Source: Yamagishiella unicocca (Eukaryota; Chlorophyta; Chlorophyceae; Chlamydomonadales; Volvocaceae). Taken from it: DNA of 64,000 bases. The position numbers and the translations under genes were made by a program. The stretch lies in NCBI GenBank assembly GCA_003116995.1, contig BDSL01000078.1, positions 434,001 through 498,000 on the forward strand, written 5' to 3'. The notes below the pieces were generated by a model. It was given only the letters and a program-made list of their open reading frames with translations, was not told where the DNA came from and did no database searches. Shown here one piece after another: positions 9,578 to 31,375 of the stretch; the first letter of the stretch is position 1; each line of letters starts with the position of its first letter.

Positions 9578-12500
9578 ATGGTACATTCGGTGCGTTCGTG
9601 CTTGGTGGCGCCCAGGCCGCCTGAGCCCAGCACCTGCCGTCATCTGTCGGCTGAGGACACGACGCAATCGCTGCGCCCCATGCCTTATCGCTACTTGGCG
9701 CAACGCCGCGCCCACATAACAGCAGTGCTCGTGAACGCGGCGGCCATGAGCGGTGCATCGGCGAGTCGCGGATTGGCGGGTCCGGGTTCGGGGCCAGGCT
9801 ACCACCGCCGACAGCCTGCACCGACCATCACCACCGAGGCTGCGGCACCTGCACCCCTAGCACGCCGGACCTCACCTGCCTTGCCTTCCCCCCTCGACGA
9901 GCTAGGTGGCGGCGCCCGCGATTGCGGTGGCATCAGCCCCTCGCCGGCTGCGGCAGCCTCGCCGCCAGTCGCAGCGGCCCCGCAGCAGCAGGCCCCGCCC
10001 CCCCCGGCAGGCCTGCAGGACCCCTCAGCCCCCCGCACCGCGGCCCTCCCGGCCCCCCGGCGCTACCGCTGGCGCCACCTGACGGACTCCGACTCCGACA
10101 CCCCTGAGGCGGCTCGGAGCGCTGCCGGCGGCGGCACCAGCTCCCCGGACAGCACCCCCTCGGTCAACGGAGCGGCCACGTCAGCGCCCGCGGCAGGCGC
10201 TGCGGCAAGCAGCATGAGGGGAGGGCGCGGAGGTCCCTCTCAGATGTCGGCTACGGCCCTATTCTCCTCCCCCGCCACACCTGCCCCCGCCAGCAGCGCC
10301 AGCAGCGGTGGCAGCCACCAGGGCGGCGGGCCTTATCCCGACACCGGGGGGCTGGACTCCGGCCGGGCCGCCCGCACGCGCCCTCGTACCCGGCATGTAG
10401 GCAGAGGCCGCACAGGCCCCAGACCCGCACGGGACCAGCACGCAGGCGGGTCCTCGCGCCAGCCCCATCCCCAGCCCCCGTCCCCGCCGCGGCGCCGCAG
10501 CTCCCGGGCCCCCACCGCCTCGCAGCTGACGGTCGCCCTGACGTCCAGCCCCTCCCTGCAGCACCTGCTGGCCCGGCTGGACCAACTAGGGGCGCTGCGG
10601 CCGGCTGCCCCCGCCCCCGCCGCCGGGGTGGCTGCAGCAGGGGCCGCCGAGGGGCGGCCGCCCTCCGCTGCTAGAGGGGCCCGGAGGCAGGCCCTCAACG
10701 CCGTACAGCTGTGCGCCGCCATGACCACCGCTGAGCGCCTGGCCAGCAGCGGCGGCCCCGTACCTCGCGGCCCCCACCTGGGGCTGCTGTCGCCGCCCTG
10801 CCGGCCGCTGTCCAGCCGCGACTCGTCCGCGCTGGCTGCCCTCCTGGCGGCGCACTCGGAGGTGCTGGCGGACTCGCAGCCGCAGGAGATGGCGGCGACG
10901 CTGTGGGCGGCAGCCCGGATGAGGCTGAGGCTGCCGGCGGCGGTTCTGGAGCCCACCCTGGAGGCGGTGTGGATGTGGGACCCGGCGGATCCAACGGCCA
11001 ACCGCCAGCCTGCCGCCAGTGGCAGCGGCGGAGAGGGGCCGGACGCCGCGGGCGGCGGCGGCGGGCGGTCTCGGGGTTGGTGCCGTGACGTGATGGGTCC
11101 GCGGGAGGTGTGTCTGCTGCTGTACGCGGTGTCGGTGCTGCGACCCGGCTACCTGCGCCGCAACGCGGGGGGCTTCGTGGAGGCGCTGGACAGCTACGAG
11201 GCGGGGGCCGCCGGGCGGATGGGGGGCCCCGGGGGGGGAGCAGGAGGGCGAGGAGGCGGAGGGGGCCTGGCGGCGGAGCAGGTTGTGGGGGTGGTGGCGG
11301 CGCTGGCTCGTGCGGACGCCTGGCTGGACGAGGAGGGTCAGGAGTTCGTGCTGCAGGTGGGGCGGGGGGATGCGGCGGGATGGGTGCGGGAGGAGCAGGG
11401 GCTGGAGAAGGGGTAATGTTGGTTTCCGGACTCCAGCGGCCAAACAAGACCCCAGAACGCTGTGGGGAGACGCTTGCCCCCGGTTTCCCCTCGTGAGCCT
11501 CCTGCACCGCCCGCAAACCTTACCCCCCCGCCCAACCCTCACCCGCAGGCCGTCTCCTCCCGCCTGGCCTCCTTCTCCACCCCGCAGCTCACCTCCCTGC
11601 TGGCCGCCTCGCAAACCTGGCCCCCACTGGGTGCGCCCCTGCACGACCGCCTGCTGGGGTCCTTGCTGCAGCGCCTGGCGGAGGAGCAGCGGCGATACCT
11701 GGAGCTGAAGCGGCTGACGAGGGAGCAGCAGCAGCAGGAACGACAACAGCAGCAGCAGGAGCAGCAGCAGGAACGACAACAGAAAGGAGGACAGAAGCGA
11801 CCAGTGGGACGACAGCAGGACACAGGAGCGGCAGGAGCAGGAGCCACCGCCGCCGCCGAGCATGACATGATGCTGCGACCGGTAGCGGTGCCGGCGGCGG
11901 CGGCGGCGGCGGTGGCGTCTGCCGGCTCGACCGCTCGCGCGCTGGTCACTGCCCTCCGCAGCTGCCTGCACCCCGGCACCGGCGAGATGAGGGTGCACGG
12001 CAGTGTGGTCAGCGGGCTGCTGAGGCAGGTACGGCACCGCGCTGCGGCCCTCAACCCCCGCGACGTGTGTGAGGGGCTAAGGCTGCTGGCGGATCTGCGG
12101 GGGCACCGCGCGGGGGTGGCGGCGTGGAACGAGGGGCTGCGGGCGCTGCTGGGCCGCTGGACGGCGCTGCTGCGGCTGGAGGCGGAGGAGGAGGCGGAGG
12201 AGGCGGAGCAGGAGGAGCAGGAGGAGCCGCGGGCGGCAGCGGTGTTGGCTCCGGGGCGGCAGGAGGGCGTTCGGGGCAGGAGCAACGGAAGCGTGTGGGA
12301 GAGGACGCGAGGACAGCAGTCCAGGGAGGGCCTAGCAGCGGCAGCGGGGGCGGCGGCGCTGTCAGTGACGGCGATGGATGCGGAGGTTCCCGAGGAAGGT
12401 GGAGCGAGCGCTGAGGCGGAGGCGGTCGAGGTGGGTTGCGGGAGGCCAGGGGGAAAATGAGACGAGGGGGCCGGGGCGGCCTGCAGCCAGGTTCCTTGCA

Positions 12501-15301
12501 AGGGGGCGTATCGTGAGAAATGCAATGTGATGTTACCCGCCACCGGCCCTGGCGCAGCTGCCCACCAGGTCCTGCAGCACACATTAAACCCCTCGCCGCT
12601 CACGCCACCACCACCGCCAGCATAGGTATCATTCCCGACCCCTTGTCCGCTCCCCTGCCTTTCCTCCCCCTTCTCCTACATAGGGCCCCGACAGCACTGC
12701 CCGCAGCGCCGCGGCCCGCACCTTCGCCGCCAGCCTGCACGCGGTGTCCCGCCTGGGGCTGCGGCTGCAGCCGGAGGAGGCGGGGGCTGCGGCCGCCGCT
12801 GCCGCCGCACTGGCGCCGCACATGGCCCGCCTGGCGGACTGCTGCATGGTGCTCACGGCGCTGGCGGGGGGGGCCGTGGGGCCGGGGACAGGGGAGGACG
12901 GCGCGGAGGCTGGGGGGGGCAGGCGGGTGCCGCAGCGGCAGCAGCGGGAAGGCGAGGGGCGGCGGCAGGGGCTGGCGCACGGGAGCACTGCCGAGGCGTC
13001 TGCTGCCCAGGAGGCGCTGGGTTGGCAGTGGCTCGACGGCAGCGGCGTGGAGCGCTTGGGACCTCGCGGGCGCAGGGCGGCGCGGCTGGTTCTGGAGCGG
13101 GCTGCCGTACACCTCCGGCGGCATGGGGAGGGATACGGCGACATGGGCCGGAGGCCTGGTCCGAGTGGCCCCAGTGCTGGCCCCACCCCGGGGGAGCTGG
13201 CCTGCATGGTCCGGGCAGCTGCCGCGCTGGGGGCCTGGCCGCCTGACCGCTGGTGGCGCACGTGGGAGGCTGGTGCCCGGGGGGCGCTGCCGCTGTCTGT
13301 GCAGCCGCCCTCTGGCCCGGGAGCTGGCGGCGGCCCTGAGCCAACCGCTGGAAGGGTGCAGGGAGTGGCTGGAGGGGTGCAGGGAGCGGCGGCTTTGTTC
13401 ACCGCCGCTGAGGCGACTGACGTGCTGCACAGCCTGGCGCAGCTGGTGCACCTGCGCTCGCGGGGGGCGGCTGCGGAGGCGCCCGTCAGGCGGCGGCGGC
13501 TCCGGCGCCGAGGGACCAGGGGGCGGTCCGCAAGGCCTGACGCGACAGGTGCCGTACCCGCAGGGGACGAGGCTGGGGCCCAGGCGGGCAGCAGTGGGGG
13601 GCCACAGGCAGCAGCCAGCGCCTCAGGAACGGCTGCGGCCCCCACTGCGGCCCCCACTGCGGCCCCCCCGCCCACCACCACCACGGCACCGTTGAGCCGG
13701 GAGGTGCTGCGGGCGCTGCTCGCGGTGGCGTGCTGGCGTGTGGGCCTGCAGCCGCAGCGCCGCGCACCCGTTGCGGCTGCGGTGGCTGCGGGCGGGCCCC
13801 GCAGCGGCCCCAGCGCCGGCAGACACATCGCCGCCGGCAGTGGAGGCGGCTCAGCCGCACGGCGGAACCAGGGCCGCAGCGGCAGGCGTGACCCCATGGA
13901 TCCCGGACCCATGACCACCTACCAGTTGGCCTGGGCGGTGGCGCGGCTGCGGCTGCTGAGCCCACGGGAGGTGGCGCTGTGGGGCCCAAGGCTGGAGGCG
14001 GCGGCGCCGCGCGCCCTCCCCCTGCTGACGCCGCGCAAGCAGGTGCTGATGCTGCGGAGCCTGCACCGCGCCTTCCGGGGGGCGGCGCTGCCGCTGCCGC
14101 CGGAGCTGGCGGAGGCGTGGCTGGCGAGCTTCCAAGCCAGCATGGGCCGCGCGCGCGCGGCGACGCTGTCGTACGCCGCCGCCGCCATGTCGGAGGCGCA
14201 GCTGAGTGCGCCCTCCGGCTGGCTGGCTGGCTTCAGGGCGGCTGTGCGGTCCCAGGCGGCGGACCTGGGGCTGAGGGAGGTGGCGGCGCTGGTGGCGGGG
14301 CTGAGGTTGCACCGCCGGCAGCCGCAGCAGCAGCAGCAGCAGGAGCAGCCGGTGCAGTACGACCGGGGCAATGCGGGGCTGGCGCGGATGCTACTGCTGG
14401 TGGGTGAACGGGGCTTGTGGCTGGGGAGGGGTTAGGGGCGAGTACGTGTTAGGCGGTTGCGAGTGGGGTGGGGGTTGCGCACGGGTGGGTCCTCGGACGG
14501 AGTCGTGTGCCCTGGGTGGGGGGATGGACCCCGTACCAGTGGGCTCCCAGCCATCATCGGCTAGCATGGACTGCGACCTGCACCAGCGGCATGCGGTGTG
14601 CCACCACAGCGGCCGCCGCTGCGGCTGCAACTGCGGATGCGCCTGGCGACGGGAAGCCCCGGCTTGCAGGGCGCCACCCAACCCAACCCAACCCGGTCCC
14701 CGGCCCAACTCCACCGCAATGCCCCGCCGCCGCAGGTGCTGCGCCGCAAGCTGTCCGCGTCCGCGGCCCCCGAACCCGGCACGCCAACAACCGTAGCTGC
14801 GCAGCCGTCCAAGCCAAGGCGGGGCAGCCAGAGCCGGATACGCAGCGCGCCGCAGATGAACGAAGCCGAGCGCCTCGTGGCCCGGCGCCTGTGTGCGCTG
14901 CTGGCGAGGGGCGCGGCTGCTGCAGGGGATGAGCAGTCCGGGAGGCGCGCGCCCGCACCCCTTCCGCCCGCTGCGGGGTTGTCTACCCGCCAGGCGCCGC
15001 CTGCTGCTGGGGCGGCCGACCTCGTCGCGCCCTCTGTGGTGGTACTGGCTCCGAGACCGCTTTTAACCATCCGGGCCGTGGAAAGGGAGGGCAGGCCTCT
15101 GCGGTTGTCGCAGCGGCCGGAGCAAGTGCCGTCGAGGTGGTGAGGGAGCGGCGGTGAGGGAGTGGGCCGAGGGGCCGCCCTGCAGGAGGCGGCGTGTACG
15201 GAAGCGTCACAGCACAGCTACTTAGCGGGAGGGGCAGGCAGCGATACAACCCTAGGGAGGGTTGGTAGGGGAGCTACCAGAACGTGTTAGTAATGCTGTA
15301 A
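9578..15301 (+). CDS. large OPR-like (octotricopeptide-type) organelle protein
   Basis: Four exons, 9578-11356, 11549-12430, 12684-14399 and 14736-15143 (TGA), all phase 0, give 1594 residues. The start (MVHSVRSCLVAPRPPEP) opens an Arg/Ser/Ala-rich N-terminus with few acidic residues, as expected of an organelle transit peptide. Helical repeats with an OPR flavour are scattered along the chain: PQEMAATLWAAARMRLRLP (exon 1), TPQLTSLLAASQTWPPLG and NPRDVCEGLRLLADLRGH (exon 2), TYQLAWAVARLRLLSPREV and TPRKQVLMLRSLHRAF (exon 3). They are separated by Gly/Ala/Gln-rich inserts. OPR proteins are algal factors that bind specific chloroplast or mitochondrial RNAs and control their stability or translation (for example Tbc2). 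I see no C-terminal RAP domain; exon 4 looks disordered. TGTAA lies at 15297-15301. The fold call is moderate; the RNA target is unknown. Confidence 0.65.
11728..11790 (+). repeat. CAG/CAA-rich tract coding poly-Gln
   Basis: Imperfect CAG/CAA repeats in exon 2 of the OPR-like gene encode EQQQQERQQQQQEQQQERQQ. A second, shorter Gln run occurs at about 14323-14348. Such inserts are common in volvocine OPR proteins and lie between repeat units. Confidence 0.7.
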
Positions 15302-17498
15302 TCGGTGCAGTGCGTACAGGTGCCGTATTGCGATCGCTAGGTAGGGCGGCACAGTGGTAGGACGGGCAATGCGAAAAGGTGGGAGCAGGTGTATGTCAAG
15401 GTGATAAGCTTCATAACGAGCGGCTGCCACCACGAGGCAGTTGAAGCGGAGGTTGCCGACAAGAAAGCCGGACGCAGCGGTTGGTGTGAGTCATAGCGCC
15501 CGGGTACCCTGCTATGACGAATGACATGGGGGGGAGGGTTAGGGAGAACCGTGTACTCGGGGCGCCAGTGAAATCCTTGCTCTGGTTAGTCACTGCTGAT
15601 GAGGAGCTGACCTTACAATCGCCGCATTCGGTACACCGCTACGCGGGTCGCACACCGCCCCCGATAGCGACTGCCGCCGTGTTCCTGGTGTGTTATGCAA
15701 TAGCTCCCGCCGACTTCCCGGTATGAGACGGAGACAGATGCATATCCGGACAGAGCCCTCAGGCAGGGCGAGAACCCTAGTATTCCCTGCCCTGTAGTCT
15801 CTGTACTGAATGGCGGTTACCATGAGTTACGGCGGGCTTCAAATTCGGAAGTGGGGAATCCTGGGTACATCGCCGAGCACAGGGGGCGCAGTGGTCCATC
15901 CTCGCACCGCGTCGCCCTCCCAGCAACAGCAATAGCCGCGCAGTAACTTGGGTATTTGCCTGACTTTGTTTGCCCCACCGTGATGCTGGGTTGTCGCGAC
16001 ACGGTACGGGCCTTGCGCCCCGCCGTACTGAATGTGAGTGCTAGTGTGTCTACTGAGTACAGAAACGAAATCGTGTAGGCCTGCAACCCCACTCTTATTG
16101 CGAGACTCTCCTTCGGTGATATAAGTTGTAAACAGGATTGAATGGGCCCGCCGGATTGATTGGAGGGTACCGGGCAGTGTGTAGCCGTTAGTACTACTGT
16201 ACGGCCAAGCCTGGCCTAGCTGTGAGTGTCGGGGGCAAGCAGGAAGGCGACACTCCGACACAGCCGTTCGTTTACCAGGTGTTGAATCCTGTCCTGGATG
16301 CTATTAAACAACGCGGACAGTAGGGACCATCGCGGAGGCCAAGTTGTTAACTTGGAGTTTGCGCGACCTGGCGGTAGCAGCAGACAGACACGCACCGACA
16401 GGCGCTCGAAAGTACAGCACATAGACATTTGGCTGCCCGTGTGCGCCGCGATACCTCGGGAGTTGCCTATGATATCAAATATGACTGGTTGCAAACCGGG
16501 AAGGGGTACCGCAGCATAGTCTTTTCTGGCCTCGAAAGCCGCAGTTGGGTCCATCCCTACCTGTAGTCGAGAGCCGATTCGAGATTTCGCCGCGATAGTC
16601 CCAAAAACATAACAATGCAATGAGTTTATGATAGTGGCGATGTTGCATGGAACTGCGCCACATTCGGAAGCTGCTTGGCAGCGGCTACATGGCAGCAAGG
16701 AAGTCGCCGACGAGACGTCCGTTATTGACGAAGTTGTAAAAGGCTGTGTGCTCTGCGAATTGAGTGGTCGCATCACCAAGCATGGAGCATCGTCACCATA
16801 GGAATAACACGTACAGACGGTAGGGTCGCACACGTCGGACATGTCCTGAATCTGTCTTGCGTTTGTTGTTTGTAGCAAACTTAAGTGCAGGTGGGGGAAT
16901 CTACCGTAGTAATGAAGCTAGGGATGTACCAGGCCGTACGGAGCGCTGCTCAGCGGGATCAAGTTCCGGATTCCATGGGGGGGAGGGGTTGCAGCAACGC
17001 CGGGTGCTATCATATGTACCATTTCCTTCCTAATTGAACAAGCGCATTCCATCTGTTATGTCTGTTTCTTCACGCAGCGCGATATTTACGGGACATACCT
17101 CCAATACCGAAACGGTGCTACCACGTGACTAAAGAAGCGCTTGCAGGAACGGCACGTCTTTTACCGGCCTTGGCCAAAGATCACCATCTATATGACTATT
17201 AATTCGCTAACTTTAAGATATTAACCTGGTATTGTGTGCGCCCTTCGTCACTAGAGCATTGCGAGGTAAGAAGCGCGGCAGTAGCAAAGCTATCCAGTTG
17301 GCGAACGTTTAGTGAACATCCGTGACTCCAGCCTTTCCTCGGATTCATTTTTTCATCCAATCCCACCTATGAAGCTCTCCTTCATCAGCAAACGTCCACC
17401 GTACGGACCTTTTGCATGCCGCTGCAGGAGTCACTCGTCTTACATAGCTACTATACTGTTTGCAGACGCGCACGCATCACAACTGCGCAGGCGCCTCT
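15302..17498. other. spacer 5' of protease copy 1
   Basis: This is non-coding spacer inside duplication unit 1. ORFs here are short, and most have diverged or broken counterparts in unit 2, which argues against coding function. The last few hundred bases (from about 16880) are well conserved between units and presumably hold the promoter of the protease gene. Confidence 0.5.
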
Positions 17499-19867
17499 AT
17501 GATGGCGATGGCTATCAGCGGGTCATCGATGCGATATGCGTTGGGATTAGCCCTGATCTTTGCGCTCCAATCCGCGGCCGTGGGTACAGTCGACGGCGAT
17601 GGACCTGGCACCGCGATTGGTAAGCATCGTACGGGTCTGATGCAAAAATGGTACTAGTCCAATCCACCATTGCCGTACAAACTCCTCACAACCTGTTGTT
17701 GATCGGCAGGTACGATAATGGCGTTGTCATCATCCTTCACGGGCCGTGAAAGCTCGGACTTGCACTACTATCTACAAGCGGATGGCGACAGGACTTACCG
17801 TTTGGTTTTCTGCGACGATGTGCCGATTGAGGGCATCATCCCTAACTCTCGCGCCACCATCATCTACGAACGGATTGTTGGGAAGGTTATGTACTCTTGC
17901 CAGCTGCCTCAGCGGCATGACGAGTCGCGTCGGCACCTTGTCGCCAGCACCGTCGCCACGCCGACAAAACCCACCTTCCTCGTCTACACAACGACCATGT
18001 GCGGCTACAATGCTCCAGCAGCAGCCACACCAGAGGTATTTGGGGTGGCCCTTTACACTCGGCAGCCGTGGGTACCAAGTTTGCGTCAGGGGGCCATTCG
18101 CCAGACATGTCGTCGCTCTAATTCACCTTCTATTGAATAATTCTACAATTGCCGCGCGCTTAACCCTCGCAGGTGGTGAACGATCTATTCACTGGAAAAG
18201 GCATCCAGCAGGGCCGATCCCTGGCCGGGTACTATGACACATGTTCGTACGGCCAGGTTACTATCGATCCTTCCCAGGTCAAGATCGTAGGCCCCATCGA
18301 GATCCCTTGCGCTGGGGAGCTGCCGAAGCCTGTTCCATATCCCCTTAACGGTGGTGGCTTTGACACGACGACTTGTGGCGACAACTTAGTCAAGTGGCAC
18401 TATTACCTAGATCTGGTCGCCAAGGAGCAAAACATAACCGCTCAGAATTTTCACCACCGGATCCTAATTTTGCCCAAGGGCTACGTCAAAGATCGTAAGT
18501 ATCGACCTCCGCGCGAGAGCATTGCTGCCGTGAGCACGCTGCATTAGTGAAACACGTCTGCTGGCGGATATGAACGTGCGGGTGTGAGCGCCGCAGTTAA
18601 ACACTTAGGATTGCCTTTTCACTAGGATGGGCATATGCCACAATTGCAACAATTCCACCTAGCCTGAACCATGCTGAACTGTCTTTCGCTGACTTGACGC
18701 AGGCTGCAATGGTTTCGCTGGGTTGTCAACTCAGGGGCGATGGACCTCTCAGCGTCCCTCTGCAGCTTCATCCAATACGTGGGGCACATCCTTGGTCTGG
18801 TTGAGCGGCAACTCCATCGGAGATGTGGAGATTTTGTTCCATGAAATCGGTCACACGCTGGGCATGAGTCACGCCAACGTTCCAGGCGGTTGCGACCTGC
18901 CCGACCAGTGTGACCACACCTGCCCCATGGGGGCTACGGGTGGCCAAGGCATCCGCTGTCTGAACGCCCCCCATCTTTGGCAGGTAAGCTTTCTCTTTTT
19001 CGCACCCATCGTAGCTAGCTTCTAGGAGCTTCCATTTGGCGCACCCGTCTGAAGTCCTCACCCACAATACGCTAAAGTCTGTACTCCACGCTTCCCGTGC
19101 AGCTTGGCTGGGGCGGTCCTTTCCTGGAGCTCAGCGACAAGGACTTGGGGTACGGCCAACGGCAAGTCGTACAGGTGCCGCCGCAAATGAGTACGCCCTG
19201 GAGCTCCGTTACTGTTGCCTTGAGCGGAATGACTCCAAACCAGAAGCTCTATCTCTCAGCTCGGATCAACAAGGCACCGTACGAGCTGCCCAACATAAAG
19301 TCATACGATGGCAAGCCCTTCCTTGTGGTCCACAGCTTCGACGGTTCACGCCTTAGCTTTTCTGACCCTCAACCTCCGAAGGTTACGACAGTGCTGGTGG
19401 GAGAAATGGGACTCGGCAGGACGTGGGCACACGCTGCAAGCGGTCTGGTCGTGAGCTTTGCGGATTGGGACGGCGTTAACGGTGCTGCTGCTACGCTATG
19501 TCGCCGCAAGGGAGTCACGGAGCAGGTGTGCGGCGACGATATTGACGACGACTGCGACAACCTCCCAGACCATCTAGACCCAGACTGCCTAGCCGTTGAG
19601 CAGCGAACAGTTCCCAGGAGCCCACCACCACGCCGCAGCCCGTCGCCAAGCCCACAGTCTCGGCCGCCATCAGTCAGGTCGCCGCCGCCACCTCGTCCTC
19701 CACGACCTCCGCCGCCGCCTCAACCTAGCCTTCCCGGGCTGCCCCCGCCGGCGCCGAGGTCGCCGCCGTCACCTCGGCCACCGAAGCGGCCTCGGAGTCC
19801 ACCCCGGCTGCCGCCGACTGCCGGACGCCGCGTACTGCGCAACCGTATGGCTCTCAGGCCTGTATAG
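17499..19867 (+). CDS. M11 (gametolysin/VMP-type) metalloprotease, copy 1
   Basis: Five exons, 17499-17619, 17710-18035, 18173-18494, 18703-18983 and 19103-19867 (TAG), give 604 residues. An N-terminal signal peptide is visible (MMAMAISGSSMRYALGLAL and following). The zinc site HEIGHTLGMSH lies at residues 303-313, matching HExxHxxGxxH, and CPMG about 20 residues later is the likely Met-turn. Residues about 493-512 (CGDDIDDDCDNLPDHLDPDC) resemble the acidic Cys-flanked MopE-type metal-binding motif. From about 520 the chain is a Ser/Pro-rich tail expected to be hydroxyproline-glycosylated. Family knowledge: gametolysin digests the gamete cell wall, and Volvox VMPs act in the extracellular matrix. 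Secretion is inferred from the signal peptide. It is almost identical to copy 2, including introns 1 and 2. Confidence 0.9.
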
Positions 19868-20357
19868 ATAGCGACTAGACAGAGTGGGACGAAACAAGTT
19901 TTTGTACATAAAAGACAGGTTTGCTACTGTTCGGAGCGATTGCCTGGTCGCACATCCTTACCTGATAATGATTGACTGGTATGGCTCCAAAGGGCTAACG
20001 TTGACGGCGAGAAACTATTGATCATCTTGACACGTTAACGTTTTACGCGTTGTGCCTATGCTGCTGTGGAGGCATTGCTTTACTCCAGTAATATTTTCAG
20101 TTCAGAGGTCCCCTGTTGCATAAGGCGGTTTGGCGGTGGATCTTCAGGTTGTGCATTCTTTTACTTGTACAGTGGGGTTTTTGCCGGTATAAACCCCGAT
20201 ATATACATAGGCCCTAATGCGAAATATATATTATACATACAAGGAATACAAGGTGAAGTATGGGCCAATGCCAATTCACATACTTATGAGTGTCAGAGTG
20301 AAGTATGAGCCTATTCACATACCTATGAATCTGTGTGGAATATTTCTAAAGTACCGC
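19868..20357. other. 3' flank of protease copy 1
   Basis: AT-rich 3' flank. Two imperfect repeats of about 43 bp containing GTGAAGTATG(A/G)GCC lie near 20249-20312. A matching pair occurs in unit 2 at about 25647-25710. I see no gene. Confidence 0.5.
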
Positions 20358-20530
20358 GGTGAGGGAGCGGCGGTGAGGGAGTGGGCCGAGGGGCCGCCGT
20401 GCAGGAGGCGGCGTTTACGAAAGCGTCGCAGCACAGTTACTTAACGGGGAGGGGCAGGCAGCGATACGTGCCTAGGGAGGGTTGCTAGGGGAGCTACCAG
20501 AACGTGTTAGTAATGCTGTAATCGATACAG
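20358..20530 (+). pseudogene. orphan copy of the OPR-like gene 3' UTR
   Basis: This segment matches 15139-15311, which is the stop codon and 3' UTR of the OPR-like gene. It contains the TGTAA signal at 20517-20521 but no upstream exon. It is a by-product of the duplication breakpoint, though the poly(A) signal could still end read-through transcripts from protease copy 1. Confidence 0.8.
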
Positions 20531-21100
20531 TGCGTACAGGTGCCGTATTGCGATCGCTAGGTAGGGAGGCACAGTGGTAGGACGGGCAATGCGAAAAGGT
20601 GGGAGCAGGTGTATGTCAAGGTGATAAGCTTCACAACGAGCGGCTGCCACCACGAGGCAGTTGAAGCGGAGGTTGCCGACAAGAAAGCCGGACGCAGCGG
20701 TTGGTGTGAGTCATAGCGCCCGGGTACCCTGCTATGACGAATAACTGGGGGGGGGAGGTGAGACAGACGCATACCCGGACAGAGTCCTCAGGCAGGGCAT
20801 ATCCTGTAATGAATGGCAATTACCCTGTGTTACTGCGGGCTTCTATTTCGGAATTGGAGAATCCTGGGTACATCGCTGCGCACAGGGGGTGCAGTGGCCT
20901 ATCCTCGAACTGCGTCGGTCTCCCCAGCAACAGCCGCGATTCAACGTTGGTATATGCCTGACTTTGTTTGCCCCACCGTGATGCTGGATTGTCACGACAC
21001 AGTAGAGACCTTGCGCCCCGCTGTACTGATTGTGAGCGCTAGTGTGTAGACTGACTACAGAAACGAAATCCTGTAGGCCTACAGCCCGACTCCTTTTGTT

Positions 21101-21179
21101 GTAACGGTTTCAGTGGGTTCCAGACCAAGAGGTAGAACCATCGGGCGCATCGCCTGACACTGAACAAGACGGAGGAAAC
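21101..21179 (+). repeat. short dispersed repeat, copy i
   Basis: Starts GTAACGGTTTCAGTGGGTTC and contains the core CATCGGGCGCATCGCCTGAC. It is absent from the equivalent place in unit 1 (near 16110), so it inserted after, or was lost since, the duplication. It is almost identical (2 differences in 79) to the copy at 30261-30339. Confidence 0.8.
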
Positions 21180-21310
21180 TCCTGTTGAGAAGCTCTACTT
21201 CGGTGACATGAGCTGTAAATAAACTTTGTATGGGCCCGCCGGGTTCGATTGAAGGGCTGGAATGAACTGACGGGCGCACGGCAGTATAATTGGCGTGGAG
21301 TGGCATGTTA

Positions 21311-21366
21311 AAGTGGGCCCCAGGCCAGAAGGTAGAGCCATCGGGCGCATCGCCTGACACTGAAAG
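21311..21366 (+). repeat. short dispersed repeat, copy ii
   Basis: A diverged copy with the core GGTAGAGCCATCGGGCGCAT and the shared end CGCCTGACACTGAA. It lies in an insertion of about 190 bp specific to unit 2 (to about 21480). The sequence after the core differs from copies i and iv. Confidence 0.75.
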
Positions 21367-22122
21367 ACACACAGGAAGAAGAACAAGTTGGCCGACCGAG
21401 ATATGGCAAACCACCAAAAACCCTGGCCAAGGGGCTAGAGAACAAACCATGTATGGCCGAACAAATGCATGGCCACTGTAAGAAGCTTTAACCGTTAGTA
21501 CAACTGTAGATCCTAGCCTGGCCTAGCTGTGAGTCTCCGGGGCAAGGAAGACGGCTACACGCCCCGTCGTTCCCCGGGTGTCACATCCTAATACATTCCC
21601 TATCCTCCAAAAGCGGACAGTATGAAGGGATCATGGCGGATAGCCCGATGAGAACCTGGAGTTTGCGGTTGGGCGCGACCTGGCGGTAGCAACGTACAGA
21701 CACGCACCGACAGGCGCTCGAAAGGACAGCACATGAGCATTTGGCTGCCCATGCGCGCCACGATACCTCGGGAGTTGCCTATGAAACCAAATATGATTGG
21801 TTGCGAAGCAGGAAGGAGTACCGCAGCATAGTCGTTTCTGGCCTCGAAAGCCGCAGTCGAGTTTGTCCCTACCTGAATGTAACCGAGACCCGATTCTTCG
21901 AGATTTCGACACGATGGTCCAAAGAGTACGTATAACAATCAGTATGTTGGATAGGCTGCTTATCTGACAGTCCGCTGTTGCATGGCACTGCGCCGCATCC
22001 GGAAGCTGCTTGGCAGCGGCTTCACGGCAGCAAGGAAGTCGCCTCCGAGACGTCCGTTCTTGACGAACGCTACAAGGACTGTGCCCCCTGCGACTTGAGT
22101 GGTCGCATCACCACGCACCGCG

Positions 22123-22197
22123 TTTCTTTCAGTGTCAGGGATGCGCCCGATGGCTCTACCATATGGCCTATGGTCTGGGGACCATTGTAACAGTTAC
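22123..22197 (-). repeat. short dispersed repeat, copy iii, inverted
   Basis: Minus-strand copy. Read in reverse it starts GTAACTGTTACAATGGTCCC and contains GTAGAGCCATCGGGCGCAT. In unit 1 the flanks are directly joined (CATCACCAAGCATGGAGCATCG near 16770), so this is a clean insertion in unit 2 only. Confidence 0.8.
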
Positions 22198-23022
22198 TAC
22201 CACCAAATCATGGAGCATCGTCACCATACGGATTATACCGACCTACACGTACAGACGGTAGGGCCGCACGTGTCAGACATGTCCTGACCCTGTCTTGTGC
22301 GGTTGTTGTTTGTATATGCGGTTGTTGTTTGTAGCAAATTTAAGTGCAGATGTTCAAGTGCAGGTGGCGGAATCTACCGTAGTAATGAAGCTAGGGATGT
22401 ACCAGGCCGTAAGGAGCGACTGCTGAACGGGATCAAGTTCCGGATTCCATGGGGGGAGGGTGCAGCAACGCCGGGTGCTATCATATGTCTCATTTCCTTG
22501 CTAAGTAAACAAGCGCATTCCGTCTGTTATATGTCTTTTTCTTCACGTAGCGCGATATTTATGGAACTTACCTCCGAATAGCGAAACGGTGCTACCACGT
22601 GACTAAAGAAGCGCTTGAACGACACGTCTTTTACCGGCCTTGGCCAAAGATCCTGAAAGATCATTATTTATCAAGCATTTACTTTAACTACCGGTACTTT
22701 AATACTTTTACCTTGTCGGGTGTGCGCCCTTCGCCGCTAGAGCATTGCGAGGTAAGAAGCGCGGCAGTAGCAAAGCTATCCAGTTGGGGAACGTTTAGTG
22801 AACATCCCTGGCTCCAAGCTTCGCTCTGCTTCAATAGGTTCATCCAATCCCACCTATGAGGCGCCTTTGAACCATGCCCTATGAAGCTCTCATTCATCAA
22901 CCCAAACCCAAACGCCGATCGTATAGACCTTCTGCATGTCGCCGCAGGAGTCACTCGTCTTACATAGCTGGCAACTATACTGTTTGCAGACGCGCACCCA
23001 TCATAACTGCGCAGGCGCGTCC
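22198..23022. other. spacer and probable promoter of protease copy 2
   Basis: Conserved with about 16780-17498 of unit 1, including a CCACGTGACTAAAGAAGCGC stretch about 430 bp before the start codon. No gene is seen. Confidence 0.45.
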
Positions 23023-25382
23023 ATGAAGGCGATGGCTGTCAGCGCGTCATCGATGCGATACGCGTTGGGATTAGCCCTGATCTTTGCGCTCCAATATGGC
23101 GCGGCCGTGGGTACAGTCGACGGCGATGGACCTGGCACCGCGATTGGTAAGCATCGTACGGGTCTGATGCAAAAATGGTACTAGTCCAATTCACCATTGC
23201 CGTACAAACTCCTCACAACCTGTTGTTGATCGGCAGGTACGATAATGGCGTTGTCATCATCCTTCACGGGCCGTGAAAGCTCGGACTTGCACTACTACCT
23301 ACAAGCGGATGGGGACAGGACTTACCGTTTGGTTTTCTGCGACGATGTGCCGATTGAGGGCATCATCCCTAACTCTCGCGCCACCATCATCTACGAACGG
23401 ATTGTTGGGAAGGTTATGTACTCTTGCCAGCTGCCTCAGCGGCATGACGAGTCGCGTCGGCACCTTGTCGCCAGCACCGTCGCCACGCCGACAAAACCCA
23501 CCTTCCTCGTCTACACAACGACCATGTGCGGCTACAATGCTCCAGCAGCAGCCACACCAGAGGTATTTGGGGTGGCCCTTTACACTCGGCAGCCGTGGGT
23601 ACCAAGTTTGCGTCAGGGGGCCATTCGCCAGACATGTCGTCGCTCTAATTCACCTTCTATTGAATAATTCTACAATTGCCGCGCGCTTAACCCTCGCAGG
23701 TGGTGAACGATCTATTCACTGGAAAAGGCATCCAGCAGGGCCGATCCCTGGCCGGGTACTATGACACATGTTCGTACGGCCAGGTCACCATCGATCCTTC
23801 CCAGGTCAAGATCGTAGGCCCCATCGAGATCCCTTGCGCTGGGGAGCTACCGAAGCCTGTTCCACACCCCCTTAACGGTGGTGGCTTTGACACGAAGACT
23901 TGTGGCGACAACTTAGTCAAGTGGCACTATTATTTAGATTTGGTCGCCAAGAAGCAAAACATTACCGCTCAGGAGTTTCACCACCGGATCCTAATTTTGC
24001 CCAAGGGCTACGTCAAAGATCGTAAGTATCGACCTCCGCGCGAGAACATTGCTGTCGTGAGCGCGCTGCATTAGTGAGATGCGTCTGCTGGCGGGTATGA
24101 GCGAGCGGATGTGAGCGCCGCAGTTAAACACATGCCCATTGCAAGGGTGGGCATATGCCACAGTTGCAACGATTTCAGCTAGCCTGAACCAAGCTGATAC
24201 TGTCTTTCCGCTGGATTAATGCAGGCTGCAACAACTTCGCCGGGTTGTCAAATCAGGGGCGCTCGATGTCTCAGGGTCCCTCTGCAGCTTCATCCAATAC
24301 GTGGGGCACATCCTTGGTCTGGCTGAGCGGCAACTTCATCGGAGATGTGGAGATTTTGTTCCATGAAATCGGTCACACGCTGGGCATGAGTCACGCCAAC
24401 GTTCCAGGCGGTTGCGACCTGTCCGACCAGTGTGACCACACCTGCCCCATGGGGGCTACAGGTGGCCAAGGCATCCGCTGTCTGAACGCCCCCCATCTGT
24501 GGCAGGTAAGCTTTCTCTTCTGCGCATCCATCGTAGCTGGCTAGAGCTTTTATTTGGCGCAGCCGTTTGAATTCCTCGCCCACAATGCGCTAAAGTCTGT
24601 ATTCCATGCTTCCCGTGCAGCTTGGCTGGGGCGGTCCTTTCCTGGAGCTCAGCGACAAGGACTTGGGGTACGGCCAACGGCAAGTCGTACAGGTGCCGCC
24701 GCAAATGAGTACGCCCTGGAGCTCCGTTACTGTTGCCTTGAGCGGAATGACTCCAAACCAGAAGCTCTATCTCTCAGCTCGGATCAACAAGGCACCGTAC
24801 GAGCTACCCAACAACAAGTCATACGATGGCAAGCCCATCCTTGTGGTCCACAGCTTCGACGGTTCACGCCTTAGCTTTTCTGACCCACAACCTTCGAAGG
24901 CTACGACAGTGCTGGTGGGAGAAATGGGACTCGGCAGGACGTGGGCACACGCTGCAAGCGGTCTGGTCGTGAGTTTTGCGGATTGGGACGGCCTTAACGG
25001 TGCTGCTGCTACGCTATGTCGCCGCAAGGGAGTCACAGAGCAGGTGTGCGGCGACGATATTGACGACGACTGCGACAACCTCCCAGACCATCTAGACCCA
25101 GACTGCCTAGCCGTTGAGCAGCGAACAGTTCCCAGCAGCCCACCACCACGCCGCAGCCCGTCGCCAAGCCCACAGTCTCCGCCGCCATCAGTCAGGTCGC
25201 CGCCGCCACCTCGTCCTCCACGACCTCCGCCGCCGCCTCAATCTAGCCCTCCCAAGCCGCCGCCGGCGCCGAGGTCGCCGCCGTCACCTCGGCCACCGAA
25301 GCGGCCTCGGAGTCCACCCCGGCTGCCGCCGACTGCCGGACGCCGCGTACTGCGCAACCGTATGGCTCTCAGGCCTGTATAG
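23023..25382 (+). CDS. M11 (gametolysin/VMP-type) metalloprotease, copy 2
   Basis: Five exons, 23023-23146, 23237-23562, 23700-24021, 24225-24505 and 24621-25382 (TAG), give 604 residues with the same phases as copy 1. It retains the signal peptide, HEIGHTLGMSH, the CPMG Met-turn and the MopE-like motif. Introns 1 and 2 are essentially identical to copy 1; introns 3 and 4 differ modestly. Local changes include an extra residue in the signal peptide (LQYGAAVG against LQSAAVG), exon 4 CNNFAGLSNQGRSMSQG against CNGFAGLSTQGRWTSQR, and a one-residue-shorter Pro-rich tail. No stop or frameshift was found, so both copies look functional. Function is inferred from the family: zinc protease of the extracellular matrix or gamete wall. 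Confidence 0.9.
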
Positions 25383-25750
25383 ATAACGACTAGACAGAGT
25401 GGGACGAACCAAGTTTTTCTACATAAAATACAGGTTTGCTACTGTTTGGGCGAGTTGTGTTTATTGATGTTCTGGGAGGCCACCTGACCCTTATTTTGGG
25501 ATGTCGCCTGTTGCATAAGGCGATATGGCGGTGAACATGGATCTTCAGGTGGTGCATTATTCTTTTAGTTGTACAGTAGGGTTTTTGCCGTTATCCCCGA
25601 TATATATATACATAGGCCCTAACGCGAAATATAGATTATGCATACAAGGTGAAGTATGAGCCAACGCCAATCCATATTACTATACATAAGTGCCAACAGA
25701 GTGAAGTATGAGCCAAATCACATACATATTATGATATTTTCCTTAAATGT

Positions 25751-26990
25751 TTGCAGCCTAAATGACAGGAGGCCGTTTGCTATCGACCATTGTGCCTAAT
25801 TGCCTAAACTTCGTTATATAATCATGCAGCGGAGGCCAATCCCTGGGGATTGAAGTCGCGTCTTGGAAGGACCGATGTGGCCTTACGGGTCACCACAGCT
25901 GCCTTGTAATGCTGTGGCGACCCGCTGCATTCTGTTTGGTGCCGTTTGTACCATAGCAATCTGAAGTAACAAATGACGCACCAGGCTGATGCTATTCACT
26001 AAATGCACCCATGGCAGCGTCGAGGCCCGGTCCAGTGTCAGGGCGCCCTTGAAATGCCCCATTACGGTAGGCATTTCTGCCATGTCGCTTCTGACGAGGT
26101 TTAGAGGTTACGTTCGATCAGGTTCAATTCTAAATAGATCTTGGATATGAAAGGCCACCGCAGCCGTGTGGCAGGTATAGGACACGTCCTTCTAACCTAC
26201 ACGTCTAAGAGAAAACAGGACGGCAGGGTGTTTCTTGCCACAGCCTTTTCCAACCCGAATCAGTAACTACAAGCGGTTGAGCACCGTTGTACTTGTGGCA
26301 GCCCTTCTTGTCCTGGGTTTGCCCGGGCTTGGGGTCACTGTAACATCTCATCATCTGGAACGTGTGTCGACGCGTGTGGGCTGTGCCCCAGGGTATCGCA
26401 CGACATATTATAAATTACCCAAGTTGACATACCGTATGCCCCGTGTCCTGGAAAAAAAGAGTGGGGCCAGTGACAAATGATTTTACGCCTGCGCAGATTT
26501 CATCTTTGCATCCTGGCATAAGTCAGCCCACAGGGTTACTGCGATTGCGGTCCGATGATATAAACCTGAATTTTAGACTCCTGACCGGTCATATATGGCA
26601 AAATCGTAAGCACGGGTAGGTTGTTCCTCGCAACGCAATCGATTCGGTAACAACGACCCAGCTAATTACCGTATGTTTAAAGCCGTAAAGAGGGGGAAAA
26701 CCTGCAATGGATTTCAATACGTGACTAGTAGTGGAGGTGAGGGAACCTGTGAGTTAAAAAGGTAAGTACTACGCGACTGCTCAATTTGGATTGGGTTCCG
26801 GATTTCAGGGGATCCCGATATCAGTGTGCAGCTGTGTGCGACTGTGTGCCTTCATAAAGGTTAACCACCTCAATACCATGATATTCAATATTCCAGCTCT
26901 ACCGCATGGTCAACGTGTAGTGTCTTTGGTTCACGCTCGTGACTAAAGGAATCCTTGCAGTATTCGGAGCGCCTGGACGCGTCCAGGGCG
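25751..26990. other. spacer 5' of protease copy 3
   Basis: AT-rich and not similar to the spacers of units 1 and 2. An open stretch at 26235-26480 encodes a hydrophobic run (LSTVVLVAALLVLGLPGLG) like a signal peptide but has no ATG. It may be a remnant of another first exon or chance. No other coding evidence. Confidence 0.4.
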
Positions 26991-29325
26991 ATGACTGTTA
27001 GCGCGTCATCGACGATATGCGCGGTCGGATTAGCCATGATACTTTCACTCCACTATGACGCAACCGTTGATGCGTTCGATAGCAATGGACCTGGCTCTGA
27101 GACGGGTAAGCCTCCGGACTTGTGCAAGGCCAGGATAAATGCCGGCCCTGCGTGACCATAACAACCCTTGCTGATTTCACAGGTATAATGATGATGTTGA
27201 TGACGTCCTTCACCGACGGTACAGACTCGGAATTGCAATTCTACCTCCACGCCGACAATGACCAAAACTATCGTTTGGTTTTCTGTGACAGTGTGGCGAG
27301 CGATAAAATCATCCCTAACTCTCGCGTTAGAATTGCATTCGACAATGTTACTGGAGGCGTGATGTACTCCTGCCAGTCGCCGCAATCACAGGAACAGCCG
27401 CACCGGCTTCTTGCCGCCGGCATCGTCTCCACGCCGACAAAGCCCCAATTTCTTGTTTACATCACCACGCTCTGTGGTTATACTGCTCCAGCAGCAGCTA
27501 CACCTGAGGTATGTCGGCTGCGCATCTACATCAGCCTGCATCAGCAACCGAACCTGCATGCAGCGGGCCGTGAACTGTCATTGGCGCACTGTTTGGGCTT
27601 TGCCCCAAGCGGCCCTGTGATACACGACTTTTCAAGTGCCGCGCGCTTAACCCTCGCAGGTGGTGAACGATTTATTCACTGGAAAAGGTATCCAGCAGGG
27701 CCGATCCCTAGCCGGGTACTACGACACATGTTCGTACGGCCAGGTCACCATCGATCCTTCCCAAGTGAAGATCATAGGCCCCGTCGAGATCCCTTGCGCT
27801 GGGGAGCTGCCGAAGCCGGTTCCATTTCCATTCGGCTCCAATCCCCGCTTTGATACCAAATCCTGTGATGGAAACCTAGAAAAGTGGCACTACTATCTGG
27901 ATGCAGCGGTTGCCAAAAAGCAAAACATCGCCCCTCAGGATTTCCACCACCGCATTATAATTTTGCCCAAGGGTTACTCAGACGATCGTAAGTTGACGCA
28001 CTGGACATATGTCGGTGCCATGTGTTCAATGTTCAAACTCATACTTTGATTGCCCTTTACACATAGTCAGCTATTTCCTGGCTTACATCTGTTGTGCTGA
28101 TTTGCATGTGGAGGGTTGAGGGATGACATCTGACGACAGGAGAACTTCAATATAGAGGATTCTTTTAGATATATTTTGCGCCATCCCTTGATGCAGGATG
28201 CAACGGCTTCGCCGGGTTGTCGAACCAGGGGCGATGGCTCTCTCAGCGTCCCTCTGCAGCTTCATCCAATACGTGGGGCACATCCTTGGTCTGGTTGAGC
28301 GGCAACTCCATCGGAGATGTGGAGATTTTGTTCCATGAAATCGGTCACACGCTGGGCATGGGACACGCCAACGTTCCAGGCGGTTGTGCATTCGTCGACC
28401 AGTGTGACCACACCTGCCCCATGGGGGCTACGGGTGGCCAAGGCATCCGCTGTCTGAACGCCCCCCATCTGTGGCAGGTAAGCTTTCTCTTCTGCGCATC
28501 CATCGTAGCTGGCTAGAGCTTTCATTTGGCACAGCCGTTTGAATTCCTCACGCACAATGCGCCAAAGTCTGTATTCCACGCTTCCCGTGCAGCTTGGCTG
28601 GGGCGGTCCTTTCCTGGAGCTCAGCGACAAGGACTTGGGGTACGGCCAACGGCAAGTCGTACAGGTGCCGCCGCAAATGAGTACGCCCTGGAGCTCCGTT
28701 ACTGTTGCCTTGAGCGGAATGACTCCAAACCAGAAGCTCTATCTCTCAGCTCGGATCAACAAGGCACCGTACGAGCTGCCCAACATAAAGTCATACGATG
28801 GCAAGCCCTTCCTTGTGGTCCACAGCTTCGACGGTTCACGCCTTAGCTTTTCTGACTCTAGACCTCCAAAGGTTACAACAGTGTTGGTGGGAGAAATGGG
28901 ACTCGGCAGGACGTGGGCACATGCTGCAAGCGGCCTGGTCGTGAGCTTTGGTGAATGGAATGACGTCAACGGTGCTGCCGCTACGCTATGTCGCCGCAAG
29001 GGAGTCACGGAGCAGGTGTGCGGCGACGGTATTGACGACGACTGCGACAACCTCCTGGACCACCTAGATCCGGACTGCTATGGACAGCTTTCCAAGTCGC
29101 CACCACCATCCGCTAGCAGACGGTCGCATCTCCCCAACCCGCCGCCACCACCACCCCCGAGACCGCGTCCCCGCAGCCCAAGGCCACCACCGATGCCGCC
29201 GCCTTCACCACCGCCACGTCGTCGCAGCTCTCCTCCTCGGAGCCCGCTTCCACCATCGCCACGCCCGCCGCGTAGGTTTGCTGCCAGGAGGCGCTAACTT
29301 CCCTTGTTCGGCACTTTTGGTGTAA
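26991..29325 (+). CDS. M11 (gametolysin/VMP-type) metalloprotease, copy 3
   Basis: Five exons, 26991-27105, 27183-27508, 27660-27987, 28197-28477 and 28593-29297 (TAA), give 584 residues; TGTAA is at 29321-29325. The intron positions and phases equal those of copies 1 and 2. The signal peptide (MTVSASSTICAVGLAMILSL) and exon 2 are clearly diverged, as are introns 1 and 3 and the second half of exon 3. The 3' end of intron 2, the first part of exon 3, exon 4, intron 4 and most of exon 5 are nearly identical to the other copies. The zinc site reads HEIGHTLGMGH, followed by CPMG. The MopE-like motif is CGDGIDDDCDNLLDHLDPDC. The Pro-rich tail is shorter and unrelated in sequence. It is predicted to be a secreted zinc protease like its neighbours. 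Confidence 0.88.
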
Positions 29326-31375
29326 ATATGGCAGGGCTGTCGCTGAGCTGAACGCTAATCTAGTTAACGGCCGCCAGCCCTGCGCACTTGCTATGATTCC
29401 TCCTCAATGACCAGCTGACGTCATTCATAGAAAATGAAAGGTCGGGACACCGCCTGCGCGACGAGAGGGCTGTGCTTCGATTCGTACGTGACAACAAATG
29501 CACTGTGCTTGCGGGATTCATGGATGTCGATTATGGCTACCAGGTTATTGCGTTTGGCGCACCCTGTGAGAGTTAGTTGACGTCAAGTGGTTCTAAAGGG
29601 TTCCTAACCCGTCCTAGGGGACCCAAGGGAGCATCTCCGAACGTTGCAGAAGCGTACAGAACGTAGCAGGTATTCATTTGAAGACAAGGCGTGGAATTAT
29701 TATCTTCACGTTGTGTTGCCTGTGGGTCGTCATGGCCGGCTTTTTCCCTTTAGCCTAAGGTTTTTTATTCATACAGTTCCTTTCCACGTCCATTCTGGTA
29801 GGCTCGCTGGGCCAGACTCCGCTGTCTGTCTGCAGGCTCTGCCGTCATGCCAGCCGTGTGCGCGCTGTCCGTGTCGAAGTGGAACTCCACTATGTCCTCA
29901 GCAGTATGGCACATATTTCGGCCCTTGGCTCGGCATCCTACGCCGAATTTACATAGGTTGTACATCCAATTTATTGATGAACATATCCATGAATTGAAGT
30001 ACAGCAGGACGGTAGGCGTGCATATATGCCCGTAATTTTCCTGACAGGATGCGTATCAAATGCTTCGCTGTTTGAAGGCCGGTGTCCTGAATTGATAGGC
30101 CGTTGTCGACATTGCTGCTCCGTTAGACCGAGGCAGGCACCTGTGGGTGCCCTGCGGCGGGTTTCCATCGGGGGGGTCTCGGGGTTCACGCTCGGTCATT
30201 CATTGTGCTGATGCTCACTGCTTTAGGGTTTTAGGTTGTTGTTGTAACGGTTAGGTTGTTGTAACGGTTACAGTGGGTTCCAGACCAAGAGGTAGAACCA
30301 TCGGGCGCATCGCCTGACACTGAACAAGACGGAAGAAACAAAAACCGACCTGCACCGGAACAAAGGCATCCACCAGAACACCAAATCGACAGGCCGTAGG
30401 CACACAGAGCAGCAGCCAACACCCCAGGGGGAATTTGCACTAGAGGCTCCCCTATCAGGAACTGGCCACCAACCAACCTAACAGGTGTCACAGTGCTGGG
30501 TTGTGCGTGATCCAGAGAAGGCTCTCAAAGCGTCTAAGGAGCACACCTGCACTGGTGCTGGGTAAATCATCAATCCTCTGAGTATGGAAGGCCCGCGTGC
30601 ACGGGGCTTCCTTGTTGGCGTGTTTTGCTTGCACGTTGACAGTTACTACTATGTTGACGTGGCACCAAAGGTTGCACTACGATCCTTATTGCGATTGTAA
30701 TGTCGGTAGTGGTACTTTGGGCTCTATATACTCCGGTCTCCGTAAGCGTCCGGCGCATCGCCCGACGGCTCAGCCTTTTGGAGTCCAATGTAGTAACACG
30801 TACTAATGCAGGGCGCAGTGGCCTCTCTGTGCGGCCGCGGTAAGTACCCTGGTGCGATGCAAGGCGGGCTATCCCCTGGTATCGTTCACATGTCAGCACA
30901 GGCCAGGCAAACTCTGGATGCGGTACAGGTCGCCGCCGCCAACAACTTGGCTTACATCGCGTATCCACACACGCTCAGCTGGAATAGTCATCCGTTGAAA
31001 TAGCAAACAGCCTTTCCAGGTACACGAAGCGGTCAGCACAACGGCTTCTGCTAATTGCGGGCACGGTGCATAATTAGCTAGCCGCCTTTGAAGATGTATC
31101 GAATGCAGTATAGAAAGGAACCAATTGGTATGCATGCCGGTCCGTGTTACCCCGTCACTGCATGGTCATCGTGCGGTCGCCTAAATACACGTCATTCCAT
31201 TGCGCCCCAAGCGGCGTACACACATACATACGTAATTGAGCGCATTAAACATTTCCCTAACCTTAGTAGCCATACAACATCAGTTTCCGAGCCCAGAACC
31301 AACTTTAAAAAACAGTTTGCTGTTTCAATCTACAAGCACCAAGAGTTGCGCTACCGGTAATTACAAACAGTGGCC
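29326..31375. other. 2 kb spacer, no confident gene
   Basis: Short ORFs only. It contains the fourth copy of the dispersed repeat (30261-30339), preceded by two GTAACGGTTA words. The region 30560-31130 has no splice-supported coding potential that I can see. Confidence 0.45.
30261..30339 (+). repeat. short dispersed repeat, copy iv
   Basis: Starts GTAACGGTTACAGTGGGTTC, ends near ACAAGACGGAAGAAAC, and matches 21101-21179 almost base for base. The 5' end forms an imperfect palindrome (GTAAC-G-GTTAC). The sequence GGGTTCCAGACC vaguely resembles a tRNA B box, so a SINE end is possible, but no A box is evident. Confidence 0.8.

Follow-up and report, generated by a model that had tools for sequence, protein, structure and literature searches.

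Three protease genes lie on the same strand of the window, i.e. the whole stretch of 64,000 nucleotides that was analysed, in a Yamagishiella unicocca genome assembly of 133,378,104 bases and 1415 contigs. They are called copies 1 to 3 below; their frames are intact and their introns all run from GT to AG.

17499..19867, + strand: copy 1, five-exon M11 (gametolysin) protease gene with GT/AG introns and a spliced open frame of 604 aa; exons 17499-17619, 17710-18035, 18173-18494, 18703-18983 and 19103-19867 (+)
23023..25382, + strand: copy 2, structured as copy 1, spliced open frame of 604 aa; exons 23023-23146, 23237-23562, 23700-24021, 24225-24505 and 24621-25382 (+)
26991..29297 (exactly the CDS), + strand: copy 3, mosaic gene, spliced open frame of 584 aa; exons 26991-27105, 27183-27508, 27660-27987, 28197-28477 and 28593-29297 (+)

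A Pfam scan covering copies 1 and 3 (copy 2 was left out) matched both to Peptidase_M11 (PF05548), with 74.9 bits (E = 7.5e-21) and 71.8 bits (E = 6.6e-20), respectively, against a cut-off of 21. Exon 4 encodes HEIGHTLGMGH in copy 3 and HEIGHTLGMSH in copies 1 and 2; we take HExxHxxGxxH to be the zinc-binding site of M11/gametolysin-type enzymes. A Pro-rich tail is present in the translations of all three copies. The homologue search for copy 3, in which 7999 candidates were scored, gave 29 database relatives (42-48 % identical) from Volvox, Pleodorina and Tetrabaena, and no PDB chain matched its sequence at E <= 0.001. M11 matches of identical score (76.2 bits, profile 139-274) were also seen on contigs C292, C1087, C187, C311 and C1211, which suggests identical or redundant copies. 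GC content is 75 % in 10001-14000, whereas the region of the protease genes (16001 to 30000, in bins of 2 kb) has 51-58 %. An 84-bp direct repeat (97.6 % identity) is found at 21096-21179, near unit 2 (the tandem unit of copy 2), and at 30256-30339, downstream of copy 3, with weaker copies near 21307 (direct) and near 22128 (inverted).

Divergence profile and blocks of copy 3

Divergence was computed per gene segment as the fraction of differing sites, given here as copy 1-copy 3/copy 2-copy 3. Exons 1 to 5 yielded 0.295/0.261, 0.319/0.316, 0.180/0.177, 0.068/0.078 and 0.181/0.195, the last value being raised by the Pro-rich tail, and introns 1 to 4 yielded 0.468/0.468, 0.409/0.409, 0.558/0.624 and 0.122/0.052. 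The sequence-only reading, in which copy 3 was described as a mosaic, was confirmed: exons 1-2 differ by 26-32 %, introns 1-3 by 41-62 % and intron 4 by 5-12 %. High per-segment divergence was found in the parts it had listed as diverged (exons 1-2, introns 1-3 and the second half of exon 3), this half of exon 3 standing out by its dS of 1.5-1.7. Divergence was neither uniform along the gene nor as high in intron 4 as in introns 1 and 3 (Fisher test of intron 4 against introns 1+3, p = 3.8e-15 for copy 1 and 3.2e-25 for copy 2). From one end to the other, copy 3 is diverged, near-identical, diverged, near-identical and diverged again, and its 5' flank, intron 3, Pro-rich tail and 3' flank are its own.

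Blocks were delimited by a permutation test of maximum-scoring segments (2000 column permutations), used in place of GENECONV. The segments obtained with copy 1 were 27637-27825 (11/189 sites differ) and 28226-29055 (43/830), with scores of 128 and 592; those obtained with copy 2 were 27637-27824 (10/188 sites differ) and 28207-29055 (52/849), with scores of 133 and 562. The largest permuted scores were 72 for copy 1 and 69 for copy 2, and none of the 2000 permutations reached either score (p = 0.0005 for both blocks, at match and mismatch rates chosen after the sliding-window divergence profile had been viewed). Both blocks are contiguous stretches of raised identity flanked by diverged homologous sequence, which characterises gene conversion tracts (n = 2 blocks). 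They bear out the claimed near-identity of the exon 3 start, exon 4, intron 4 and most of exon 5. The limits proposed earlier, i.e. about 27638-27800 and 28200-28850, stood as regards the presence of two blocks and the inclusion of intron 4, but block 2 reaches about 29055 and is about 200 bp longer. Similarly, the shared end of intron 2 is near-identical as claimed, but block 1 starts 23 bp before the intron end rather than 25 bases.

When silent sites only (introns and four-fold sites) were considered, both blocks were found again with 5000 permutations (p = 0.005 and 0.0002 for blocks 1 and 2 with copy 1, 0.0008 and 0.0002 with copy 2), the limits of block 1 being then 27637-27740 and 27637-27803. 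Four-fold differences amounted to 15/153 (copy 1) and 13/147 (copy 2) within the blocks, and to 43/84 and 43/85, respectively, beyond them. Silent and non-coding sites are homogenised as well, another mark of gene conversion tracts. The following map of copy 3 was drawn up.

27637..27825, + strand: conversion tract 1, last 23 bp of intron 2 and first half of exon 3; 11/189 sites differ from copy 1
27826..28206, + strand: unconverted island, second half of exon 3, intron 3 and first bases of exon 4; dS 1.5-1.7, intron 3 divergence 0.56-0.62
28207..29055, + strand: conversion block 2, exon 4 with HExxH, intron 4 and exon 5 to near the Pro-rich tail; p = 0.0005
28361..28395, + strand: copy-3-specific cluster in block 2, 8 copy-3-unique sites
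28471..28579, + strand: sub-tract nearest to copy 2, end of exon 4 and intron 4
28575..28856, + strand: no difference between copies 1 and 3 over 282 bp; candidate for the most recent sub-tract

The dS of copy 3 relative to copies 1 and 2 was 0.69-0.76 in exons 1-2, 1.5-1.7 in the second half of exon 3, 0.25 in tract 1 (9/42 synonymous sites for both other copies) and 0.12-0.15 in exon 4. Within exon 5, it was 0 (copy 1) and 0.025 (copy 2) in 28593-28856, and 0.25 and 0.34 in 28857-29055.

Sub-tracts, probable exchange between copies 1 and 2, and direction of transfer

Judging from its site patterns, block 2 is likely a composite of several tracts, with layers of different age. Sites unique to copy 1 or to copy 2 form 10 runs in 36 sites over 28207-29055 (runs test, p = 0.002). 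Copy-1-unique sites outnumber copy-2-unique ones 12 to 3 in 28471-28579, where 3 further sites are copy-3-unique and a 4-bp length difference is also common to copies 2 and 3, and the counts are 0 to 10 in exon 5 (28593-29055); this switch of the nearest copy between the intron 4 region and exon 5 is significant (Fisher test, p = 1.1e-4). With a dS ranging from 0 to 0.34 among sub-blocks, the earlier proposal of more than one tract was upheld, as was the resemblance of copy 3 to copy 2 in intron 4 (divergence of 0.052, versus 0.122 to copy 1). Copy-3-unique sites are clustered in block 2 (at most 8 in 40 sites, scan p = 0.005), and 293 compared sites in a row are devoid of them (p = 0.0002). 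The cluster at 28361-28395 represents either an unconverted remnant, a later change or a different source. At the other extreme, the sub-tract 28575-28856 probably arose last, and copy 2 is identical as well over 198 bp of it (28580-28777).

Copy 3 falls outside copies 1+2 in the flanks, but its closest match is copy 2 in intron 4 and copy 1 in exon 5. This phylogenetic conflict rests on distances and site counts, not on a tree, and private change in copy 2 weakens it as far as exon 5 is concerned. The letters quoted for exon 5 were right, AACATAAAG and AAGCCCTTCC being found in copies 1 and 3 while copy 2 differs, but as an argument this match is weaker than claimed, several sites looking like private changes of copy 2. 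When the 10 copy-2-unique exon 5 sites were compared with four outgroup paralogues from contig C28, 6 favoured the copy 1/3 state, 1 the copy 2 state and 3 were undecided, some sites having only two or three outgroup letters. At site 28809 the base of copies 1 and 3 is found in all four outgroup sequences; at site 28786 the sole outgroup letter fitting either state is that of copy 2. Because the outgroup letters favour the copy 1/3 state, the exon 5 match to copy 1 would largely reflect change in copy 2, and this likeness should not be read as proof of copy 1 as donor.

In tract 1 and in 28857-29055, copies 1 and 2 are closer to each other in dS (0.10 and 0.06, respectively) than either is to copy 3 (0.25-0.34), which suggests that these transfers predate the present copy 1-copy 2 distance there; tract 1 is probably the older event. 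Since the counts behind dS are small (in tract 1, 9/42 for copy 3 to the others and 4/42 for copies 1-2), this age layering is likely, not proven.

Copies 1 and 2 were also compared with each other, and a homogenised block was delimited.

17573..18258, + strand: copy 1/copy 2 homogenised block, most of exon 1 to the exon 3 start; copy 2 counterpart from 23100, copy 3 positions 27059-27745

Only 3/686 sites differ in this block (p = 0.0005), 2/323 when silent sites are considered (p = 0.0002), and it holds a 472 bp identical run. Copies 1 and 2 differ by 12-14 % in introns 3-4 and upstream, and identity with unit 2 is only 77-78 % in three aligned unit pieces lying outside the gene (16182-16782, 15731-16100 and 20105-20326). 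A further copy 1-copy 2 segment, 28580-29222 (copy 3 positions), was not significant (p = 0.08). A recent conversion event between the two copies best explains the block. Like copy 3, these two genes are mosaics, and the cluster as a whole shows partly concerted evolution. Where the tandem unit begins, about 396 bp (15140-15535 and 20359-20753) are 96 % identical between units 1 and 2, as compared with about 77-86 % in the neighbouring unit sequence; only these two places were matched in a genome DNA search, and the patch is possibly a further copy 1/copy 2 homogenised patch or a conserved element.

The tracts are common to three sequences only, and direction was read for the exon 4 end and intron 4 alone. 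Intron 4 distances are 0.122 (copies 1-2), 0.122 (copies 1-3) and 0.052 (copies 2-3). Between copies 1 and 2, the distance is 0.139 in intron 3, 0.142 upstream, 0.011 in intron 1 and 0 in intron 2, the low values of introns 1 and 2 being ascribed to conversion between copies 1 and 2. The argument treats 0.139 and 0.142 as neutral values for this pair; since 0.122 comes close to them, intron 4 seems to have followed its own course in copies 1 and 2 ever since their duplication. Intron 4 of copy 3 would then branch from that of copy 2, and a transfer from copy 2 to copy 3 is the simplest reading we infer for intron 4 and its border. Exon sites were polarised with the four C28 paralogues, which are very diverged: for copy-1-unique sites of exon 4, the outgroups went 2 with the odd copy, 2 with the shared state and 1 undecided, and for copy-2-unique sites 3, 2 and 2, respectively. 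The view that sequence came "from the duplicated proteases" is supported by the distances at the exon 4 end and in intron 4, and found no support for the other parts.

Competing explanations and proposed mechanism

Purifying selection could produce such blocks if the protein parts that they encode, together with a functional element in intron 4, were more constrained than the remainder of the gene. The zinc-binding catalytic motif does lie within the blocks, and homologues show somewhat stronger conservation of tract 1 and exon 4 (63 % and 66 % for the best listed), where constraint may add to the identity. As the main cause, we nevertheless regard selection as extremely improbable, for the silent sites are homogenised too, a result that largely refutes it. 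The segment 28593-28856 is no more conserved than the unconverted half of exon 3 in the five best listed homologues (49-54 % and 43-55 % identical to copy 3, respectively), whereas copies 1 and 3 are 100 % identical in the former and 62-70 % in the latter. Protein alignments of exons 2-5 with four paralogues from contig C28 gave 44-70 % identity, and with these paralogues intron 4 of copy 3 scored only 14-19 (shuffle maxima of 20-24, the C28 intron limits being approximate), as compared with 151 for copy 1 and 200 for copy 2; no Rfam family reached its gathering score in 15000-30000. Selection or a conserved intronic element was rejected on these grounds, i.e. silent sites, homologue controls and paralogue introns, and the earlier remark that the likeness of intron 4 is hard to explain by selection holds, this intron being unrecognisable in four paralogues. 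Conversion rather than selection best explains the blocks, because silent sites and an intron are homogenised while exon 5 and intron 4 are not specially conserved.

An artefact of assembly or polishing, with copy 1/2 reads placed on copy 3 or correcting it, would fit the 282 bp identical in copies 1 and 3. According to passages of PMC6123790, the Yamagishiella unicocca PacBio assembly was corrected with mapped Illumina reads, and such correction might over-correct paralogues and raise identity within near-identical blocks. It would hardly turn introns that are 40-60 % different into 5 %, however, and copy 3 keeps its own substitutions (31/849 sites in block 2, 9 coding sites in tract 1), intact frames and intact splice sites, so that we consider this origin very unlikely. 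Even less weight is given to a chimeric birth, i.e. one unequal crossover or partial duplication that fused an old gene with a piece of copy 1/2: a single fusion could also bring intron 4 along with the adjoining exons, but the alternating pattern and the copy 3-specific flanks call for four junctions, and the sub-blocks differ in dS. A transfer in the opposite direction, with copy 3 as donor and copies 1/2 as recipients, is a sub-question compatible with conversion. Nothing speaks against it for tract 1, exon 4 and exon 5, the exons not being polarised by the outgroups; intron 4, by contrast, would require transfers into both copies, yet the copy 1-2 distance there (0.122) is about that of intron 3 (0.139), and it is copy 2 that lies nearer to copy 3. 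Overall, this direction appears doubtful, although far less so than the artefact or the chimera.

We therefore favour interlocus gene conversion as the origin of the copy 3 mosaic, with a probability of roughly 93 %. An old duplication of a gametolysin-family protease gene would have given rise to the copy 3 lineage and to the ancestor of copies 1 and 2; a later tandem duplication of this ancestor, with units of about 5.2-5.5 kb, would have produced copies 1 and 2. By ectopic conversion, in which a break in one copy is presumed to be repaired from a neighbouring paralogue, short stretches would have been repeatedly pasted among the three genes of same orientation. In copy 3, a probably older event would have overwritten the exon 3 start, and at least two events would have replaced most of exon 4, all of intron 4 and the portion of exon 5 that is not repetitive. 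The catalytic exons may have been similar enough to seed strand exchange, a likely reason for the location of the tracts, and intron 4, by virtue of its position between these exons, would have been taken over with them. Pairing presumably failed in the diverged parts, namely the exons for the signal/pro-region, introns 1-3 and the Pro-rich tail.

Generality and known systems

The mosaic was shown for the cluster of copies 1-3 only. Four genes from each of two further M11 clusters (C28:252500-289500 and C49:239500-271000, other M11 clusters, e.g. C94 and C65, being left out) were compared, and their 12 within-cluster pairs gave no long near-identical tracts among the matches listed, local matches having 66-89 % identity.

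One might imagine conversion to be module-preserving, the catalytic core of exons 4-5 being repeatedly homogenised while copy 3 is free to diverge in its promoter, signal/pro-region and Pro-rich tail, but we hold this to be improbable. If it were true, new matrix proteases would keep arising with the same active domain and with different control and targeting. The locus is a clear-cut natural example of ectopic gene conversion, with well-defined limits and an intron taken over together with its exons, in a gene family whose expansion is said in PMC4844696 to go with organism size in volvocine algae. Its three-copy layout makes donor switching and relative tract ages readable from one locus. 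It also warns that whole-gene trees and dates in the M11 family can mix several histories.

No report of conversion among M11 paralogues was found in the literature, as judged from titles and abstract openings, and the passages searched of PMC8608804 hold nothing on these protease genes. The process itself is ordinary and well known, and copy 3 is a good new example of it. Conversion between neighbouring paralogues is described for Caenorhabditis tandem genes in passages of PMC3966223, according to which ectopic tracts are mostly 50-200 nt, introns are carried along and long tracts may be composites; the organism and the gene family differ, and in the present case there are three copies, the nearest of which switches along one gene. 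The GOT1p1/GOT1p2 genes of Tigriopus californicus, as presented in part of PMC3728101, share with copy 3 a mosaic of high and low divergence, continuing conversion and new gene combinations, several populations being compared there and one genome here. Closest in taxonomy, excerpts of PMC3757049 and PMC4856071 deal with conversion at the volvocine mating locus, i.e. in the same algal group and likewise deduced from shared tracts or low divergence, but between gametologs of one locus, whereas the genes studied here are tandem paralogues.
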